From Candidatus Planktophila sp. (lineage in GTDB: Bacteria; Actinomycetota; Actinomycetes; Nanopelagicales; Nanopelagicaceae), in assembly GCA_009691135.1 (NCBI GenBank), contig SHVF01000007.1, forward strand, positions 1-42,491: a stretch of DNA of 42,491 nucleotides. Direction: 5' to 3'. A model generated the notes under the pieces. The model searched no databases. It saw nothing but the letters and a program-made list of their open reading frames with translations, and was not told the origin of the DNA. Position numbers and translations under genes: made by a program. Within the stretch, counting starts at the first letter, position 1. Every line of letters begins with the position of its first letter. Of this stretch, positions 1,436 to 32,378 are shown piece by piece.

Positions 1436-2353
1436 TTAAAGCAATAGAGATTTTTGTGTTACTTGAGTAAGTGCTTGTTCAAATTCATTACTTGCAAAAC
1501 TCACTTGGACATCCTCAAACTTTTCCATTCCCCATTGCCAAAAATCAAAATCTATCTCCGAAACTGAATTCTGAATCGAAGCCCACAAAGTCCAGCCGTA
1601 TTTGGCAAGCAGAGCGAATAACCAGGCCCGGGCTAATTTTTCTGGACGCGAACCTCCGTAATAAGAGGTAACTAACTCATCGAGTGCTGATAAAGGTAAC
1701 TTCGCTTCGCTCCAGATATTTCCAAGTTCGAAGCAAGGATCGTTATTGCCAGAGTATTCGTAATCAATTAACCAAATCTTCTTACCGTCATCGATAAAAT
1801 TAGCAGGAAGCAAGTCGTTATTACATGGAACCCTTACCTCATCCAAGATAGCCAGAGCAGTTTTCATTCTAGAAAGGTGTGGTGCGTATTGGTGATAACC
1901 GTTTGGAAATCTAAAACCAGATTCAGTGACCAGTTTTTGATAATTTTTCTGAATAACAAACATGTCGAAGTCTCTAGTGAATGGAGCTGCTTTATGCAGA
2001 AGCTTGCAAGTACTGGCAATCCTGCTTAAGTTATTAGATACATCAATTTCTGAGTAAGTCTTGCCTGGTATGTAACCGATTACCAATAAGCCAAAGTCAG
2101 GCAAATAATCAAAAACGGGAGCGCCAACCCCAATCCCTGCGGCTATTCTTGAGTTTTCATATTCAGAGCGGCGATCTATGGCAAGTAGTGATGATTTATT
2201 GCTAGATATTCTGGCAACATAATCCCCGGACGCAGTTGAAATTTTTAGGTTCCGATTAGTTAGTCCACCAGATAATTCAGTGACCGCTATTCTGTTCTTC
2301 AAACGTGGAACTTTATCTAACAAATCGTCAAATTCATGACTAGATTGGCTCAC
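1436..2353 (-). CDS. Choline/ethanolamine-kinase-like phosphotransferase (APH fold)
   Basis: About 305 residues with the protein-kinase-like fold of the aminoglycoside phosphotransferase/choline kinase family. The C-terminal half carries the catalytic loop (C-N-N-D-L-L-P-A-N) and the metal-binding segment IDYEYSGNNDPCFELGN, both close to bacterial choline kinases. The first position of the catalytic H-x-D-x4-N motif is Asn instead of His, while the catalytic Asp and the metal-binding Asn remain. I prefer the GTG start at 2353, because a -10 TATCCT lies exactly 6 nt upstream; a TTG at 2359 is possible. The divergent neighbour is a dimethylglycine-dehydrogenase-like enzyme, which loosely suggests choline or methylamine metabolism. 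The substrate is inferred, not shown. Confidence 0.8.
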   Translation of the reverse strand: MSQSSHEFDDLLDKVPRLKNRIAVTELSGGLTNRNLKISTASGDYVARISSNKSSLLAIDRRSEYENSRIAAGIGVGAPVFDYLPDFGLLVIGYIPGKTYSEIDVSNNLSRIASTCKLLHKAAPFTRDFDMFVIQKNYQKLVTESGFRFPNGYHQYAPHLSRMKTALAILDEVRVPCNNDLLPANFIDDGKKIWLIDYEYSGNNDPCFELGNIWSEAKLPLSALDELVTSYYGGSRPEKLARAWLFALLAKYGWTLWASIQNSVSEIDFDFWQWGMEKFEDVQVSFASNEFEQALTQVTQKSLLL

Positions 2354-2359
2354 ACGCAA

Positions 2360-2369
2360 AGGATACAGT
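2360..2369. promoter_or_regulatory. Symmetric bidirectional -10 element
   Basis: AGGATACAGT reads A-nnn-TA-nnn-T. On the plus strand it gives TACAGT (2364-2369), 6 nt before GTG 2376. On the minus strand it gives TATCCT (2365-2360), 6 nt before GTG 2353. The central TA is shared, so one 10-bp site appears to serve two leaderless genes. Confidence 0.6.
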
Positions 2370-2375
2370 TGTGTC

Positions 2376-4832
2376 GTGAATCTTCAAGAGTTGCCAACGC
2401 GCGCAAAGATTGTAATTATTGGTGGTGGAGTTGGGGGTACCTCAGTTGCCTATCATCTAGCCCAACTTGGCGAAAAAGATGTAGTACTAGTTGATCGAGC
2501 AGATTTAACTAGCGGTTCAACTTTTCATTCAGCTGGACTTGTTGGACAGTTACGTGCTGATCCAACACTTACCAAGATGAATATGCACTCAGTGGATTTA
2601 TACAGGAGTTTAGAAAAAACAGATACTCCACCGGGATGGAAAGAATGTGGCAGCATTAAAATTGCCTCTACCCAAGAACGAATGCAAGAAATTAAGCGCC
2701 AGATAGGTTGGGCAAAGACTTTTGGGTTGGACCTGAAAGAAATTAGCTTAGGTGAGATAAAAGATTTATTTCCACTCTTAAATATGGAAGGCGTACTTGG
2801 TGGGTGTTACATGGCATCAGATGGACAAGTCGACCCATCTCAATTAACCCAAGCTTTAGCAAGTGGTGCCCGAAAAGAAGGCGTGAAAATTTTCACTCAC
2901 ACCAGAGTGCTAAAGATTAATACTAAAAATGGCAGAGTTACCTCGGTATTGACCGATAAAGGTGAGATTGAATGTGAAGTTGTAGTTAATTGCGGTGGTA
3001 TTTTCGCCGCCGAAATCGGTCGAATGGTAGGCGTGCGCGTCCCGATTGTGCCAATGAGTCACCAATATTTAATAACCGAGAATTTTTTGCCAGAAAATTC
3101 ACTCACTCTTCCATCGCTTAGAGATCCAGATAATTTGATCTATTTCCGCCAAGAAGTCAAAGGCCTACTTATGGGTGGTTATGAGAGAAATTCAAAAGCA
3201 TGGCGGACAAGCCACGAATCATTGGATTCAATACCTGCAGACTTTAATGCAAAATTACTGCCGGAAGAGTGGGATCGGTTCGAAGAGATTGCCACGAACG
3301 CTGCCATGCGCGTGCCAAAAATGGGCGAAATTGGCATCAAGAATTTTATAAACGGTCCGGAAGCATTTACGCCGGATAATGAATTTTGTTTAGGTGAGAG
3401 CTCTGTCGGCGGTTTCTATATAGCTGCAGGTTTTTGCGCACATGGAATTGCAGGAGCCGGCGGCGTTGGCAAAGTAGTAGCCGAATGGATTGTGGCTGGT
3501 GAGCCAACGATGGATTTGTGGCATATGGATATCAAGAGATTCTCTGATGCTTATAAGTCTCCTAAGTTCACTCTGGAAAGAGTTAGTGAAAACTATGAGG
3601 CTTATTACGATATTCATTACCCTGGAGAAGAGCGCCAGAGTGCGCGTGGAGAAAAGAAATCTCCAATCTATGATTGGCATCGCAACAATCATGCAACCTT
3701 TGGAGAGAAGGCGGCTTGGGAGCGAGTTAATTTCTATTCAAACCCAAACGAGAGTCAATTGGATGAAACGTTAAGGCCACATGGATGGGTAGGGAAAAAT
3801 TGGCATCCCGCAGTGGCGCTGGAACATCACGCAACTAGAACTTCAGCTGGGATTTTTGATGAATCAAGTTTTGCCAAAATTGAGGTAACAGGAGAAGGCG
3901 CAGCAGAATTCTTATCTTTAGTCTGTGCAAATAACGTTGTAAGAGGTATTGGCAGAACGATTTATACACAAGCGTTAAATACCAGTGGTGGAATCGAATC
4001 TGACTACACCGTGACCCAAACCGCTGAAAACGCCTTTTTTATAGTAACTGGCACTGCTTTTCTAAACCATGACTTAGGTTGGCTAGAAAAAGTACGTAGG
4101 CAATACAACTATCAAAACGTTGTCATAAAAGATTTAACAGAAGAGTTAGCATGTTTTGGTATCTGGGGCCCTAACGCTCGAAAAATTTTAAGTAAATGCA
4201 CAGAAACGGACTTATCAAACGAAGCCTTCGGCTTCATGCGCTCTCAAGTAATTAAAGTTGCAGGCGTGCAACTTCGGGCAACGCGAATCACCTATGTCGG
4301 TGAATTAGGTTGGGAGCTCTACATCCCGAGAGAAAAATCTTTACAGGTTTGGCTCTCATTAATTGAAGCGGGTAAAGAATTTAATCTACGCCCATGTGGC
4401 TATCGCGCGATTGAGTCCTTGCGTTTAGAAAAAGGATATCGTGCCTGGGCAGGTGAGATAAATAGCGAAACCAACCCATATGAGGCGGGGCTAGGTTTTG
4501 CAGTCTCAACCAAGAAAGAAAATTTTATCGGCCGGCAAGCGGTACTGACTGCAGAGTCTAATAATAAAAGAAAGTTAACTGCTTTGACTTTTAGCGACAT
4601 CAGGGATGTGCCACTCGGCAACGAACCTATTTTCTTTAATAGTGAAGTTATTGGCAGAATTAAATCAGCCGGTCAGGGATACACCCTAAAAACAGCAATT
4701 GCCTATGCCTACCTTCCCTTGGAACATAGCCAACCGGGAAGAGAATTAAGTGTAGAAATGTTTGGTCAGGCTAAGACCGCTACAGTTAGAACAGAGCCAC
4801 TTTTTGATCCGGCAGGGGAGCGAATTAAATGA
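2376..4832 (+). CDS. FAD-dependent dimethylglycine/sarcosine dehydrogenase-like protein with GcvT domain
   Basis: An 818-residue two-part enzyme. Residues 1 to about 370 form a DAO-type FAD domain: the GGGVGG dinucleotide motif is at 16-21, and a GSTFHSAG segment contains His51 at the position where dimethylglycine dehydrogenases attach FAD covalently. A short FAO middle domain follows. Residues from about 430 to the end are a GcvT-like aminomethyltransferase domain that in relatives binds tetrahydrofolate and captures the released one-carbon unit. Family members oxidatively demethylate dimethylglycine, sarcosine or similar N-methyl compounds; the exact substrate is not readable here. The GTG start is set by the leaderless promoter. 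It overlaps the next gene by 4 nt (ATGA), so the two are translationally coupled. Confidence 0.9.
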   Translation: MNLQELPTRAKIVIIGGGVGGTSVAYHLAQLGEKDVVLVDRADLTSGSTFHSAGLVGQLRADPTLTKMNMHSVDLYRSLEKTDTPPGWKECGSIKIASTQERMQEIKRQIGWAKTFGLDLKEISLGEIKDLFPLLNMEGVLGGCYMASDGQVDPSQLTQALASGARKEGVKIFTHTRVLKINTKNGRVTSVLTDKGEIECEVVVNCGGIFAAEIGRMVGVRVPIVPMSHQYLITENFLPENSLTLPSLRDPDNLIYFRQEVKGLLMGGYERNSKAWRTSHESLDSIPADFNAKLLPEEWDRFEEIATNAAMRVPKMGEIGIKNFINGPEAFTPDNEFCLGESSVGGFYIAAGFCAHGIAGAGGVGKVVAEWIVAGEPTMDLWHMDIKRFSDAYKSPKFTLERVSENYEAYYDIHYPGEERQSARGEKKSPIYDWHRNNHATFGEKAAWERVNFYSNPNESQLDETLRPHGWVGKNWHPAVALEHHATRTSAGIFDESSFAKIEVTGEGAAEFLSLVCANNVVRGIGRTIYTQALNTSGGIESDYTVTQTAENAFFIVTGTAFLNHDLGWLEKVRRQYNYQNVVIKDLTEELACFGIWGPNARKILSKCTETDLSNEAFGFMRSQVIKVAGVQLRATRITYVGELGWELYIPREKSLQVWLSLIEAGKEFNLRPCGYRAIESLRLEKGYRAWAGEINSETNPYEAGLGFAVSTKKENFIGRQAVLTAESNNKRKLTALTFSDIRDVPLGNEPIFFNSEVIGRIKSAGQGYTLKTAIAYAYLPLEHSQPGRELSVEMFGQAKTATVRTEPLFDPAGERIK

Positions 4833-8633: not shown

Positions 8634-9545
8634 TTACTTCCCGATTTTGGAAAGTTCTGGTGCAACAACGTTATGCAGATAATCAACTGATTGCTTCATT
8701 CCGGTGATTGGGCCTTGCCCTAAACCAGGCATTTCACCAGTAATAGCGACATCTTGTTCGATGACATACCAACCTTGGTAGCCCGCACTTTCTAGCGCCA
8801 GAATAGTTTCAAGGATTGGAACATCGCCTTGTCCAAGAGGTGTGAACAAACCTTTTTGTACACCTTCCATGATGCTCTGTTGGCGCGCGAGAACAGGCGG
8901 AACAGATTTCATATTTACATCTTTAAGGTGCACATGGCCAACCCGGCTAGCGTATTTCTTAGCAAATTCAGCTGGATCTTGTCCGCCAATTGTCATATGG
9001 CCCGTATCTAGACACCACATCACATCTGAGTTATCAACAACACGATCGATGTCGCGCTTGGTCTCGATGACAGTTTGCAAGTGCGGGTGAACAACTTGAA
9101 CAAGGCCGTGGTCTTTACAGATTTGATCGACTTTGGCGAGCATCTTAAAGAATTGTATAACTTCATCGCTGGTTAACTCTTCGGGGTTAGCCCAGTCCCA
9201 GGTTTGTACAGGGCAAGAGACAAAATGTGTTGCGCCAATTTCTTGGAATTTCTTACTGCTCTTAAGCGCCATTTCAATCGTGGCTTTTTCTTGCGACTTA
9301 TCGTGCAAAACAACTGGCGTGAATCCACCAATCATTGACATCTTAAATTCGGCTAACTGATCTTTAAGTTCTGCTGAATCATCTGAGAAAAATCCTGGCG
9401 CACCGAGTTCGGTTGCTGGCAATCCAAGTCCACTCATTTCAGATAGCACACGCTTAGTTGGCAGCATTGCGCCCCAACCAGGAACTTCACAAATTCCCCA
9501 AGAGATTGGCGCCGATGCGATGCGCTGTAAGAATGTAGTGGCCAT
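8634..9545 (-). CDS. Sugar phosphate isomerase/epimerase, inosose dehydratase (IolE)-like
   Basis: A 303-residue TIM-barrel protein of the xylose-isomerase-like family. The N-terminus APISWGICEVPGWG is typical of IolE-like inosose dehydratases. Likely metal ligands occur in VVHPHLQT, WCLDTGHM and HVHLKD. IolE dehydrates scyllo-inosose in inositol breakdown, and the IolG-like gene nearby fits that role. A longer frame reaches 9689, but its first 48 codons do not resemble the family. ATG 9545 has TATGAT exactly 6 nt upstream and is the better start. It is probably co-transcribed with the downstream NagB-like gene. Confidence 0.85.
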   Translation of the reverse strand: MATTFLQRIASAPISWGICEVPGWGAMLPTKRVLSEMSGLGLPATELGAPGFFSDDSAELKDQLAEFKMSMIGGFTPVVLHDKSQEKATIEMALKSSKKFQEIGATHFVSCPVQTWDWANPEELTSDEVIQFFKMLAKVDQICKDHGLVQVVHPHLQTVIETKRDIDRVVDNSDVMWCLDTGHMTIGGQDPAEFAKKYASRVGHVHLKDVNMKSVPPVLARQQSIMEGVQKGLFTPLGQGDVPILETILALESAGYQGWYVIEQDVAITGEMPGLGQGPITGMKQSVDYLHNVVAPELSKIGK

Positions 9546-9551
9546 TGGCTG

Positions 9552-9557
9552 ATCATA
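9552..9557 (-). promoter_or_regulatory. Leaderless -10 box of the IolE-like gene
   Basis: TATGAT on the minus strand is 6 nt before ATG 9545. This places the real start 144 nt inside the longest open frame. Confidence 0.6.
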
Positions 9558-9567
9558 ACTTGAGCGG

Positions 9568-9573
9568 TAAGGT
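9568..9573 (+). promoter_or_regulatory. Leaderless -10 box of the AroE-like gene
   Basis: TAAGGT is 6 nt before ATG 9580. It lies 10 bp from the opposing -10 at 9552-9557, so this 34-nt gap holds two separate divergent promoters. Confidence 0.5.
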
Positions 9574-9579
9574 CTGAAC

Positions 9580-10443
9580 ATGACTATGGATATTGGCGGA
9601 TCTTTTCGGCACGAATTAACTGGCAGCTTTTCGCAAGGTTCGGACTCAAACCCCACCGTTGCCATGGTGGAAGCCTCGTATAAGGCCAATAATCTGCACT
9701 TTCGCTACATAAACTGCGAAGTTAATCCAGATCAGTTAGAAGTTGCCGTACAGGGCGCCAGGGCGATGAATTGGAAGGGTTTTAACTGTTCTATCCCTCA
9801 TAAAGTAGAAGTAATTAAGTATTTGGACGGCCTCGGTGAATCTGCATCTTTAATCGGGGCAGTTAATTGCGCGGTCAACCGCGACGGTAAATTAATCGGT
9901 GAAAATACTGATGGCAAAGGCTTCCTGAAGTCATTCTTGGAACTCACGCCAGCAACCGGCAAAACCATCGTTCTGTTGGGCGCAGGTGGTGCCGCGCGCG
10001 CGATTGCCGTCGAACTTGCGTTGGCAGGGGTGAAAAAGTTCTACGTAGTAAACCGTTCTCGCGCTCGTGGTGAAGAACTTGCTGCGCTGTTAAATGAAAA
10101 GACAAACTCAACTGCCGAATTTGTGGAATGGAATAAGACTTATTCCATTCCTCTAGACGCCGAAGTTGTAATTAACTCAACTTCTATGGGAATGGCTAAT
10201 ACCGAAGGCAAACAAGATATCGATTTCGATTCTATTCATCCAGGGATGTTGGCAGCGGATGTGATTGTTAATCCGCCGCAAACCTATTTCCTAAATGAAG
10301 CTGGCAAACGTGGTGCAACAACTTTGCAAGGCTTGGGAATGGTTGTAAACCAAGCGGTCATCGGGATCAAGTATTGGACTGGCGTCGATGTTGATGCAAA
10401 AGATTTAAATGATGAACTCTTGCGAGTTCTGGGGCTTAGCTAA
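9580..10443 (+). CDS. Shikimate dehydrogenase-like protein (AroE family)
   Basis: A 287-residue protein with an N-terminal substrate domain, the catalytic lysine in NCSIPHKVEV, GENTDGKGF (usual form YNTDGxGF), and an NADP-binding LLGAGGAARAI near residue 130. The shikimate-contacting Ser-x-Ser is in a longer loop (GSDSNPT) than in housekeeping AroE. Its place inside a cyclitol-type catabolic block, away from aro genes, suggests a quinate/shikimate- or aminocyclitol-directed paralogue, but a biosynthetic AroE cannot be excluded. It has its own leaderless promoter. Its stop overlaps the converging GMC oxidoreductase stop in CTAA. Confidence 0.85.
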   Translation: MTMDIGGSFRHELTGSFSQGSDSNPTVAMVEASYKANNLHFRYINCEVNPDQLEVAVQGARAMNWKGFNCSIPHKVEVIKYLDGLGESASLIGAVNCAVNRDGKLIGENTDGKGFLKSFLELTPATGKTIVLLGAGGAARAIAVELALAGVKKFYVVNRSRARGEELAALLNEKTNSTAEFVEWNKTYSIPLDAEVVINSTSMGMANTEGKQDIDFDSIHPGMLAADVIVNPPQTYFLNEAGKRGATTLQGLGMVVNQAVIGIKYWTGVDVDAKDLNDELLRVLGLS

Positions 10444-29313: not shown

Positions 29314-30584
29314 GTAACTCTCGAATCTGTTATTTTAATTTTTTCATATTGACGAGATATAACAAGGTCGCGAATTCGTGCGAAGCCATCCCAAACTTCA
29401 ACGTAAGAAGTAGGAAGTGGTGCGATCGCTAATCGAATCGCATCCGGGGTTCGATAATCTGGAATCACGCTTGCGAATTCGCGAAGCGCTGTACAAATTC
29501 GAGCAGCATCTGGATGACGGAGAGAGATATGTCCGCCGCGTTCTTGTGGGTTGCGCGAAGTCAATAAAGTAAATCCAAGATCGGCAAGCCAGGCGTCATA
29601 GAGTTGAATCATCATCTCGGTGCCAATCGCTGCTTTCTCAGATATCGCTCCAATACCAGCTTTTTCAATCATACTGAAAGCACTTTTGACGCAACGCAAA
29701 CCGATAATAGAGGGAGATGCGATTTGGAATCCACGAATACCTTCGGCTTTTTCAAAATTAGCACCCATTGCAAATTGGTCACCTTGTGAGAACCATCCCT
29801 GTATTGGCACCTGCAGCTCAGCTTGTACTTTTTTATTTACATATAACCAAGCGGGCGAACCGGGACCCGAGTTTCCATATTTATAAGTACAGCCAACTGC
29901 GATATCAACGCCATTTTTATCGAAATCCATTTCAATGGCTCCGACTGCATGGCTGGCATCCCACAACATAAGTGCGCCATGTTTGCGAGTTAAATCAGTC
30001 AAAGATTTAATGTCATTGCGCGCACCTGAGCGATATTGAATAACTTCTAGCGTTACAAGTGCTACATCATCACTTAAATAAGGGGCGAGAATTTCTGGAG
30101 TAATTCTTTCATTCTCTGCTGATCCCGGAGATTCGTTATCAATAATTATCAAGTTAAGACCAAGTTGTTTGGCTAGACCTTCGAGAATGTAACGATCTGT
30201 TGGAAAGTTAGCGGCGTCGGTAATTATTGTCTTGCGCCCCGGTCGGGCGCTTATCGCAGCAAGTGCTAATTGGTAGAAATTAACTGATGTGGTGTCACAG
30301 GCTAGAACTTGGCCAGCAGCTGCTCCCAGCGTTGCACGACCAATTAAATCGCCGGTTGGCTGAGCTTCATCGACCCAATGGCCCCATCCAGTTACTACTT
30401 CTGGACCCCATTCATTTTTCATAAAAGAATTAATGGCATCAATTGTCGAAAGTGGAAGTCGACCTAGCGAATTTCCATCCAGATAACAGACATTTGGATC
30501 GTTGACCACAAATTGTGAGCGAAAACGCGCCAGTGGATCACGCGAATCTAGGTCTAGTGCGAATTGTCGGTCAGTGGCTTTCAT
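29310..30584 (-). CDS. kynU: Kynureninase
   Basis: A 424-residue fold-type I PLP enzyme. Features are YLDGNSLGRLP near the N-terminus, GWGHWVDEAQP, LWDASHAVGA with the PLP-binding Asp, and GCTYKYGNSGPG with the Schiff-base lysine. It cleaves kynurenine to anthranilate and alanine. ATG 30584 has TACCTT 6 nt upstream (leaderless), sharing its TA with the -10 of the divergent ABC-F gene. Confidence 0.95.
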   Translation of the reverse strand: MKATDRQFALDLDSRDPLARFRSQFVVNDPNVCYLDGNSLGRLPLSTIDAINSFMKNEWGPEVVTGWGHWVDEAQPTGDLIGRATLGAAAGQVLACDTTSVNFYQLALAAISARPGRKTIITDAANFPTDRYILEGLAKQLGLNLIIIDNESPGSAENERITPEILAPYLSDDVALVTLEVIQYRSGARNDIKSLTDLTRKHGALMLWDASHAVGAIEMDFDKNGVDIAVGCTYKYGNSGPGSPAWLYVNKKVQAELQVPIQGWFSQGDQFAMGANFEKAEGIRGFQIASPSIIGLRCVKSAFSMIEKAGIGAISEKAAIGTEMMIQLYDAWLADLGFTLLTSRNPQERGGHISLRHPDAARICTALREFASVIPDYRTPDAIRLAIAPLPTSYVEVWDGFARIRDLVISRQYEKIKITDSRVT

Positions 30585-30590
30585 AATTGA

Positions 30591-30600
30591 AAGGTACGCT
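30591..30600. promoter_or_regulatory. Symmetric bidirectional -10 element
   Basis: AAGGTACGCT reads A-nnn-TA-nnn-T. On the minus strand it gives TACCTT, 6 nt before kynU ATG 30584. On the plus strand it gives TACGCT, 8 nt before GTG 30609 of the ABC-F gene. It has the same design as the site at 2360-2369. Confidence 0.6.
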
Positions 30601-30608
30601 CTTCCATC

Positions 30609-32378
30609 GTGATGCGCAATCTAGTAAATATCGAAGAGGTTAGTAAAGCCTTTGATATTAGAGCGCTGCTCGAAAGAGTTTCTTTGGGTGTTTCTGAGGG
30701 TGATCGCATCGGAATAGTTGGTCGTAATGGTTCAGGTAAAAGCACTCTAATGAAAATTATTGCAGCAGTTGAAAGTCCAGATGAAGGACGAGTGACAAAA
30801 TCAAACTCGGCAAAAATCGGCTTACTTTCACAAGTTGATAAGGCAGATCCAAATTTGACTGTTGGTGATGTCGTACTTGGCGATAGAGCAAAACACGAGT
30901 GGGCCAGCGATGCTGGAATCCGCGAAGTCTTTACTGGTCTATTTGGCGGATTTGATGATCATTTATTTGAAAGGACTTTTGCAACTTTATCTGGCGGAGA
31001 AAAACGTCGTGTCGGATTGGCAAAGTTACTAATCGATGATTTAGATCTAATTCTTCTTGATGAGCCAACTAACCACTTAGATGTGGAAGGTGTTTCCTGG
31101 CTGGCAAGCCACTTAAATCTCCGTAAATCCCTAGCTGTATTGGTTATTACTCACGATCGTTGGTTCTTAGATGCGGTGACCGAGCGCACTTGGGAAGTTG
31201 TTGGTGGGAAAATCGAAGAGTATGACGGTGGTTATTCAGCATTTGTGTTGGCAAAAGCAGAACGTGCGCGCCAAGCAAATGCGATGGATGCCAGAAGAAA
31301 TAACTTGATCCGCAAAGAACTTGCCTGGTTGCGACGTGGCGCACCAGCTCGCACAACTAAACCAAAGTTTCGCGTTGATGCTGCAAATGTCTTAATCGCC
31401 GAAGAACCCGCACCGCGAGATCAAGGTGAACTCTTAAAGTTTGCGCGCAACCGACTTGGAAATACGGTCTATGAAGCACATCATCTGCAAGTGCGAGCAG
31501 GCGAGAAAGACTTAATTGATGATCTTTACTGGAACGTAGGTCCAGGTGATCGAATTGGAATTGTTGGAATCAACGGCGCTGGTAAAACCACTTTGATGCG
31601 TACTTTGGTCGGAGAGATTCAACCATTTGCAGGTAAATTAGTAACTGGCGTAACTGTAAAAGCCGCATTTCTAACGCAGCATTTAGATGAGTTAAATCCA
31701 CAGTGGCGGGTTCTTGAAGCAGTTGAAAAAGTTGCTGCACATATCGAACTTGGAAATGGAAAATCACTTTCCGCATCTCAACTATGTGAACGATTAGGAT
31801 TTGATAAAGATTCACAATGGACGCCGGTTGGGGATCTCTCTGGTGGCGAAAAGCGCAGATTACAACTGACCCGCCTTTTAATGGATTCCCCAAATGTTTT
31901 ATTACTAGATGAGCCAACAAATGATTTCGACATCGAAACCCTTACTGAACTTGAAGATCTATTAGACAGCTACGGCGGGACTCTGGTCGTAATTTCCCAC
32001 GATCGCTATTTTCTGGAAAGAGTTTGTGATCGATTTGTTGGCCTCCTGGGCGATAAAGTCTTGCGTGATTTGCCACGTGGCGTGGATCAATATCTCGAGC
32101 AAAGGGCAGCTGCATTACCAAGTGCGGGCTCAGAAGAAAAAAGCAAGACAGTTTCTTCTGCGGCAGAGCAACGTCAATTTAAGAAAGATTTAGCACGCCT
32201 AGAAAGACAGATAGAGAAAGCAAGGGTTCGAATAACCAAACTAGAACAGGATCAGGCCGCTGCTGCTTTTGAACCTGCAGAATTAGCACGAGTAATGAGC
32301 GAACTGGAATATGCGCGGACGGAACTTAACTCTCGCGAGGAGGAATGGCTAGAAGTGACACTTCTACTGGAGTCATAA
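30609..32378 (+). CDS. ABC-F family ATPase (Uup-like, ribosome-associated)
   Basis: A 589-residue soluble protein with two ATPase domains and no membrane segment. First domain: GRNGSGKST, LSGGEKRRVGL, LILLDEPTNHLD. Second domain: GINGAGKTT, LSGGEKRRLQL, VLLLDEPTNDFD. The interdomain linker is basic, and the C-terminal 80 residues form a charged coiled coil like that of Uup. ABC-F proteins act on translating ribosomes; the specific role (Uup-like or other) is not certain. GTG 30609 is set by promoter spacing; ATG 30612 follows immediately. Confidence 0.9.
   Translation: MMRNLVNIEEVSKAFDIRALLERVSLGVSEGDRIGIVGRNGSGKSTLMKIIAAVESPDEGRVTKSNSAKIGLLSQVDKADPNLTVGDVVLGDRAKHEWASDAGIREVFTGLFGGFDDHLFERTFATLSGGEKRRVGLAKLLIDDLDLILLDEPTNHLDVEGVSWLASHLNLRKSLAVLVITHDRWFLDAVTERTWEVVGGKIEEYDGGYSAFVLAKAERARQANAMDARRNNLIRKELAWLRRGAPARTTKPKFRVDAANVLIAEEPAPRDQGELLKFARNRLGNTVYEAHHLQVRAGEKDLIDDLYWNVGPGDRIGIVGINGAGKTTLMRTLVGEIQPFAGKLVTGVTVKAAFLTQHLDELNPQWRVLEAVEKVAAHIELGNGKSLSASQLCERLGFDKDSQWTPVGDLSGGEKRRLQLTRLLMDSPNVLLLDEPTNDFDIETLTELEDLLDSYGGTLVVISHDRYFLERVCDRFVGLLGDKVLRDLPRGVDQYLEQRAAALPSAGSEEKSKTVSSAAEQRQFKKDLARLERQIEKARVRITKLEQDQAAAAFEPAELARVMSELEYARTELNSREEEWLEVTLLLES

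Follow-up and report, generated by a model that had tools for sequence, protein, structure and literature searches.

Bidirectional promoters in bacteria form a class in which the divergent transcription start sites lie 7-25 bp apart, and a 2021 paper is reportedly the founding work on symmetric divergent promoters. In E. coli, the common distances between divergent starts are given as 18 bp and also as 10 and 23 bp, and for five such promoters basal activity is described as too low for competition, with the weakening of one direction hardly affecting the other (PMC12825309). Another point of reference is provided by the leaderless genes of actinobacteria, which are described as having TANNNT promoters and a transcript that begins at the start codon; TAnnnT is placed about 12 bp before the start, with no conserved -35 in M. 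tuberculosis (PMC3160421, PMC3898074). The M. tuberculosis prpD gene and its divergent regulator are both reported as leaderless, but because their starts (1254630 and 1254510) are 120 bp apart they do not have a -10 in common, and the passages of these papers considered here contain no -10 common to two genes (PMC3160421, PMC3898074).

We analysed a stretch of 42,491 nucleotides (the window) from an actinobacterium with a small genome, in which a choline/ethanolamine-kinase-like gene and a gene for an FAD-dependent oxidoreductase with a GcvT fold (FAD/GcvT) diverge from a very short gap. Within this gap the decamer AGGATACAGT reads as TAnnnT on both strands around one common TA (2364-2365), such that the key -10 positions overlap on the two strands (A-n3-TA-n3-T), as in a bidirectional promoter. 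Each hexamer is followed by six bases and then a GTG (2376-2378 on the plus strand, 2353-2351 on the minus strand), which is the geometry that an initial annotation of this DNA had described; its coordinates and sequence proved correct, and a recount again gave 22 bp between the coding regions. Both GTGs open long frames, of 818 aa in the plus direction and 305 aa in the minus direction (307 aa from a TTG at 2359). The start-to-start distance is 23 bp, and this is the separation that the start codons predict for the divergent transcription starts.

Features of the divergent kinase-FAD/GcvT locus, in window coordinates
Feature	Coordinates	Strand	Basis
Symmetric -10 core AGGATACAGT (A-n3-TA-n3-T)	2360..2369	.	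Sequence; 39/39 genus loci with the kinase gene
TACAGT, predicted -10 hexamer for the FAD/GcvT gene	2364..2369	+	6 nt before GTG 2376; genus TAnnnT peak at 6-7 nt
TATCCT, predicted -10 hexamer for the kinase-like gene	2360..2365	-	6 nt before GTG 2353; spacing of 6 in 39/39
FAD-dependent oxidoreductase + GcvT-fold protein, predicted leaderless from GTG 2376	2376..4832	+	Pfam DAO, FAO_M, GCV_T, GCV_T_C
Choline/ethanolamine-kinase-like protein, predicted leaderless from GTG 2353	1436..2353	-	Pfam PF01633 7e-21
Candidate -35 TTGAAG (spacer 16) of the minus promoter, in the first codons of the plus gene	2382..2387	-	Sequence; suggestive only

We consider it very probable that this is a bidirectional promoter whose two transcription starts are the two start codons, a reading that draws on the geometry, its recurrence and its conservation and in which the initiation sites are predicted ones. 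RNA polymerase with a housekeeping (sigma-70-type) sigma factor would read TAnnnT in either direction, with the one TA at the centre, and would initiate 7 nt past the hexamer, at the first base of the start codon on both sides. Because the point of initiation would be that base in each direction, both mRNAs would be leaderless. The 22-bp gap would thereby be essentially the promoter, with any -35 contacts falling within the opposite gene. One polymerase at a time could occupy it, and at ordinary activity both genes would probably be transcribed with little interference. We infer promoter function in both directions from the geometry together with its conservation, and we infer also the initiation sites, the sigma factor, leaderless translation and the absence of competition. 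It had been proposed that the two genes would be mutually exclusive at the level of initiation. In the physical sense this stands, since two polymerases cannot bind at once, but exclusion as a form of regulation is unsupported, the five E. coli promoters being reported to show little competition (PMC12825309).

The kinase gene was detected in 39 of 135 genomes of the genus, and the gap was read in all 39 after being positioned by the kinase match, independently of the motif. Every gap has the form CAY-N6-A-GGA-TA-CA(G/T)-T-N6/7-RTG, with the RTG 6 nt from the core throughout on the minus side and, on the plus side, at 6 nt in 34 loci and at 7 nt in five (G007, G116, G117, G124, G138). The start of the FAD/GcvT protein lies in the plus frame at all 39 (33 recognised by pattern, six by reading the translations). 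The minus start codon is GTG in 31 loci and ATG in eight; GTG accounts for only 98 of the 499 GTN codons in 30 of these kinases. Among the 38 distinct sequences the core columns are invariant except for one (T in 34, G in four), as is the T that follows the core, and the spacers and neighbouring codons vary. A 151-base DNA query across the gap found a full-length match in only four of the 135 genomes (G000, G076, G154, G006) and short-piece matches in nine more, three of them on contigs other than that of the kinase. In a second, partly overlapping collection the motif was present in 27 of 27 listed loci at identities of at least 67% (L155-L180, L219). The named relatives in the collection include IMCC26077 and SCGC AAA044-N04, both of which we take to be members of the freshwater acI/Nanopelagicales lineage. 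Conservation of A-n3-TA-n3-T among related genomes had been set as a check by the initial annotation, and all 39 loci of the genus keep it.

To characterise leaderless spacing, we used 750 candidate RTG codons near the starts of divergent-neighbour genes in 1.24 Mb. TAnnnT ends 6 nt before the RTG 88 times and 7 nt before it 41 times, compared with 4-18 times at every remaining distance between 0 and 39. In this genus a leaderless gene is marked by a TAnnnT 6-7 nt ahead of its start, and the present locus has TAnnnT at 6 nt on both sides, within this peak above background. Additionally, we looked for AGGA, GGAG and GAGG 4-15 nt before either start and found none in 39 of 39 loci, the present one included, that is, each lacks a Shine-Dalgarno element at a usable distance. 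Both messages are thus predicted to be leaderless, each beginning at its own start codon, and the conservation together with the genus spacing supports the proposal that one symmetric -10 serves two leaderless starts.

An improbable alternative is that one direction alone uses this -10, with the other gene transcribed from a leadered promoter inside the neighbouring gene. A leadered start could fit either the AGGA located 12 nt before the plus GTG or an in-frame ATG that overlaps the minus -10 in 35 of the 39 loci. However, the RTG spacing is held on both sides at all 39, the Shine-Dalgarno-like tetramers are missing before both RTGs as described, and several other gene pairs with the 23-bp spacing have no AGGA. 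The overlapping ATG was rejected as the minus start, as in all 35 loci it lacks both such a tetramer and a TAnnnT at a leaderless distance (5-8 nt), and the ATG is absent from four genomes.

Less probable still is that the decamer serves a dimeric regulator as its operator and is not a promoter core. An operator could account for the near-complete invariance of the core, in which a single column varies among 38 distinct loci, and Nonomuraea loci with the same gene pair have a palindrome, GGTCTAGACC, in a longer gap. The decamer, however, is not palindromic beyond A..TA..T, other 23-bp pairs have A..TA..T with a different fill (ACGGTACCCT, AGTTTAGAGT, AGTCTAGTCT), and the start codons lie at the distance typical of leaderless promoters.

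Beyond the genus, the element was absent from the 400 bp before the match in 53 of 53 FAD/GcvT loci at identities of 59% or less among the matches listed, and on these grounds deep ancestry of the compact arrangement at this gene pair was rejected. A kinase signature lies upstream in eight of the 53 (L181, L191, L196, L198, L205, L215, L221, L223), all with longer gaps and without the motif, and in G049 the open frame of a divergent kinase homologue (judged by eye) lies 120 bp upstream of the FAD match. Loss of the motif in close relatives that keep the pair, which had been named as contrary evidence, has no instance among the 39 loci of the genus; the more distant pairs do lack it. The GGTCTAGACC palindrome occurs in the gap of six Nonomuraea loci with the same divergent pair (L191, L196, L198, L205, L215, L223), and the decamer is found also in Pseudonocardia L221. 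It resembles an operator and could be the target of a regulator, and the compact gap may be a reduced form of a longer, regulated one.

We then considered how often such sites would arise by chance. The motif ANNNTANNNT is no evidence in itself, being depleted in the window (68 occurrences, against 171 expected by shuffling). The full 28-mer without a reading-frame filter was not enriched either, with 10 sites in 2.04 Mb against a shuffle mean of 7.55, and three of the 10 fall in the window and one stretch deliberately placed on known sites. We sampled the window together with 100 stretches taken from five relatives. Where head-to-head RTG pairs 23 bp apart open frames of 80 codons or more on both sides, 7 of 54 have both -10s, whereas among control CAY..RTG pairs at the same distance without such frames the figure is 3 of 1752 (Fisher p = 1.6e-9). 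The window and L109, a stretch chosen on known sites, supply three of the seven; without these two the figures are 4 of 50 against 3 of 1713 (p = 1.9e-5), both p-values being approximate because of overlapping frames and orthologues. The seven cases represent six distinct gene pairs, with the present locus appearing twice (window, G067). Across the 135 genomes of the genus, the 23-bp pattern occurs at 614 sites and its reversed version at 305, the forward pattern being higher in 103 genomes, lower in 18 and equal in 14. The register of a shared -10 between two long frames is thus non-random. That the two in-register TAnnnT elements are a coincidental by-product of a compact genome has next to no chance of being correct, as the commonness of ANNNTANNNT and the lack of excess of the raw 28-mer are set against the recurrence with the chosen pieces removed, the genome-wide excess and the conservation at the locus, the last of which by itself contradicts it.

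A number of observations were counted against the bidirectional promoter: the unfiltered 28-mer, the three chosen cases among the seven, the higher rates of double -10s at some start distances other than 23 (given below), the in-frame ATG at 35 of 39 loci, the invariance of GGA and CA in the core of the 38 distinct loci, which exceeds what a TAnnnT promoter needs, and the loss of a plus-side codon in G230 (described below). Sampling bias weakens the recurrence statistic, but the odds we give to this reading are unchanged, because they rest on conservation.

Double -10 pairs occurred at some start distances and not at others. They were absent at distances of 6-17 (0/307), 20-22 (0/81) and 37-39 (0/79) and present at 18-19 (4/29), 23 (7/54) and 24-36 (26/362). 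At distance 23, seven of the eight pairs with any -10 have both, and the 54 pairs divide into seven with A..TA..T, one with A..GC..T and 46 that are non-palindromic. Distances 19 (3/14), 27 (2/12) and 34 (4/16) give higher rates than 23, so there is no particular preference for 23 over separate -10s, and sharing of the -10 is one among several compact solutions. With 6-nt spacers, the hexamers overlap by two base pairs at distances 18 and 23, which therefore need the fewest specified bases; both distances also belong to those reported as common for divergent starts in E. coli (PMC12825309). Elsewhere in the window, at 9545-9580, a compact pair of divergent starts, both predicted to be leaderless, is separated by 35 bp, and each start has its own TAnnnT element. 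At 30582-30611 there is a second common-TA core, AAGGTACGCT (30591-30600), flanked by two divergent genes: one of PLP type (kynureninase-like by eye), with its ATG at 30584 (6 nt), and one for an ATPase that by eye is ABC-F-like, with its GTG at 30609 (8 nt).

The arrangement is not confined to this locus but recurs at other divergent gene pairs. A search with the 28-mer yielded 30 loci (L031-L060); in 14 of them each frame reaches 60 codons or more and in 16 this is not so, one of the latter (L032) ending at a contig edge. Pairs at 23 bp include aldehyde dehydrogenase/hydrolase, polyprenyl synthase/MTHFR, a weak YitT-like/DUF554, a SpoU methylase beside a protein without a family, and EamA/MgtE_N-CBS. 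The window's genome has four 28-mer sites, of which three qualify as pairs: the kinase/FAD-GcvT locus, polyprenyl-synthase/MTHFR (92% and 79% identity to the L033 proteins, the MTHFR match covering 80 residues) and an unassigned pair whose frames run to 403 and 162 codons. The last was rejected as the aldehyde-dehydrogenase pair for want of similarity, and the fourth site, on C6, was set aside with only 12 codons on one side.

All 11 polyprenyl-synthase/MTHFR loci of the family, from three genera, have the core, with the starts in place in 10 (6/6 nt in eight, 6/7 nt in two). G230 retains the core, but it has lost the leaderless codon on the plus side and its plus start has moved downstream. 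In other families the core is present in 2 of 19 loci (L251 and L263, of one genus) and absent in 17. These two, from a second actinobacterial family, carry an A..TA..T core at position 1406 with RTGs spaced 7 and 6 nt from it; the arrangement there could be either convergent or ancient.

Candidate -35 elements are at most suggestive. In the minus direction, at least four of six matches to TTGACA occur with a spacer of 17 in 29 of the 38 distinct loci, the highest mean of the offsets tested, but a competing offset of 26 reaches 26 of 38. The signal for the plus direction is weak (19 of 38, at spacer 18), and the genus profile has only a faint T at -23. With this rival offset and the weak plus direction, we do not regard conserved -35 elements as established; the sequences are suggestive of contacts that would fall within the opposite gene, and most of this signal belongs to the minus direction.

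A more speculative extension, which we think possible but on balance doubtful, is that in these small-genome actinobacteria promoter, starts and codons form a fused 28-bp unit under selection at several gene pairs, with the decamer near-frozen at the present locus because it serves two polymerases and the -35 contacts lying in the codons of the opposite gene. Such a unit might act as an expression coupler or noise limiter for two metabolic genes. Since the arrangement is found repeatedly and close relatives keep it strictly, members of the genus can serve as natural replicates for studying the effects of shared polymerase access, and the spacing to the start codons makes the transcription starts predictable from sequence alone.

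Among the open-licence literature we found no description of a double-leaderless shared -10 as a recurrent, conserved gene-pair architecture. An archaeal parallel is the TATA-driven bidirectional transcription reported in Pyrococcus furiosus, which likewise has one symmetric element with initiation both ways; unlike the present locus it uses a TATA box and TBP with starts about 50 bp apart, and its antisense product is assumed by the authors to be non-functional (PMC6640164). As in the actinobacterial leaderless genes, TAnnnT lies about 12 bp before the start (PMC3160421, PMC3898074). As in the described bacterial bidirectional promoters, the -10 is common to both strands, here with predicted starts 23 bp apart, but unlike in those promoters the predicted starts are both start codons (PMC12825309, PMC10268837). 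The symmetric -10 and the leaderless mRNA are each known; their combination in one element, which we did not find in open-licence papers, makes for a very compact divergent gene pair in which non-coding DNA is reduced to 22 bp.
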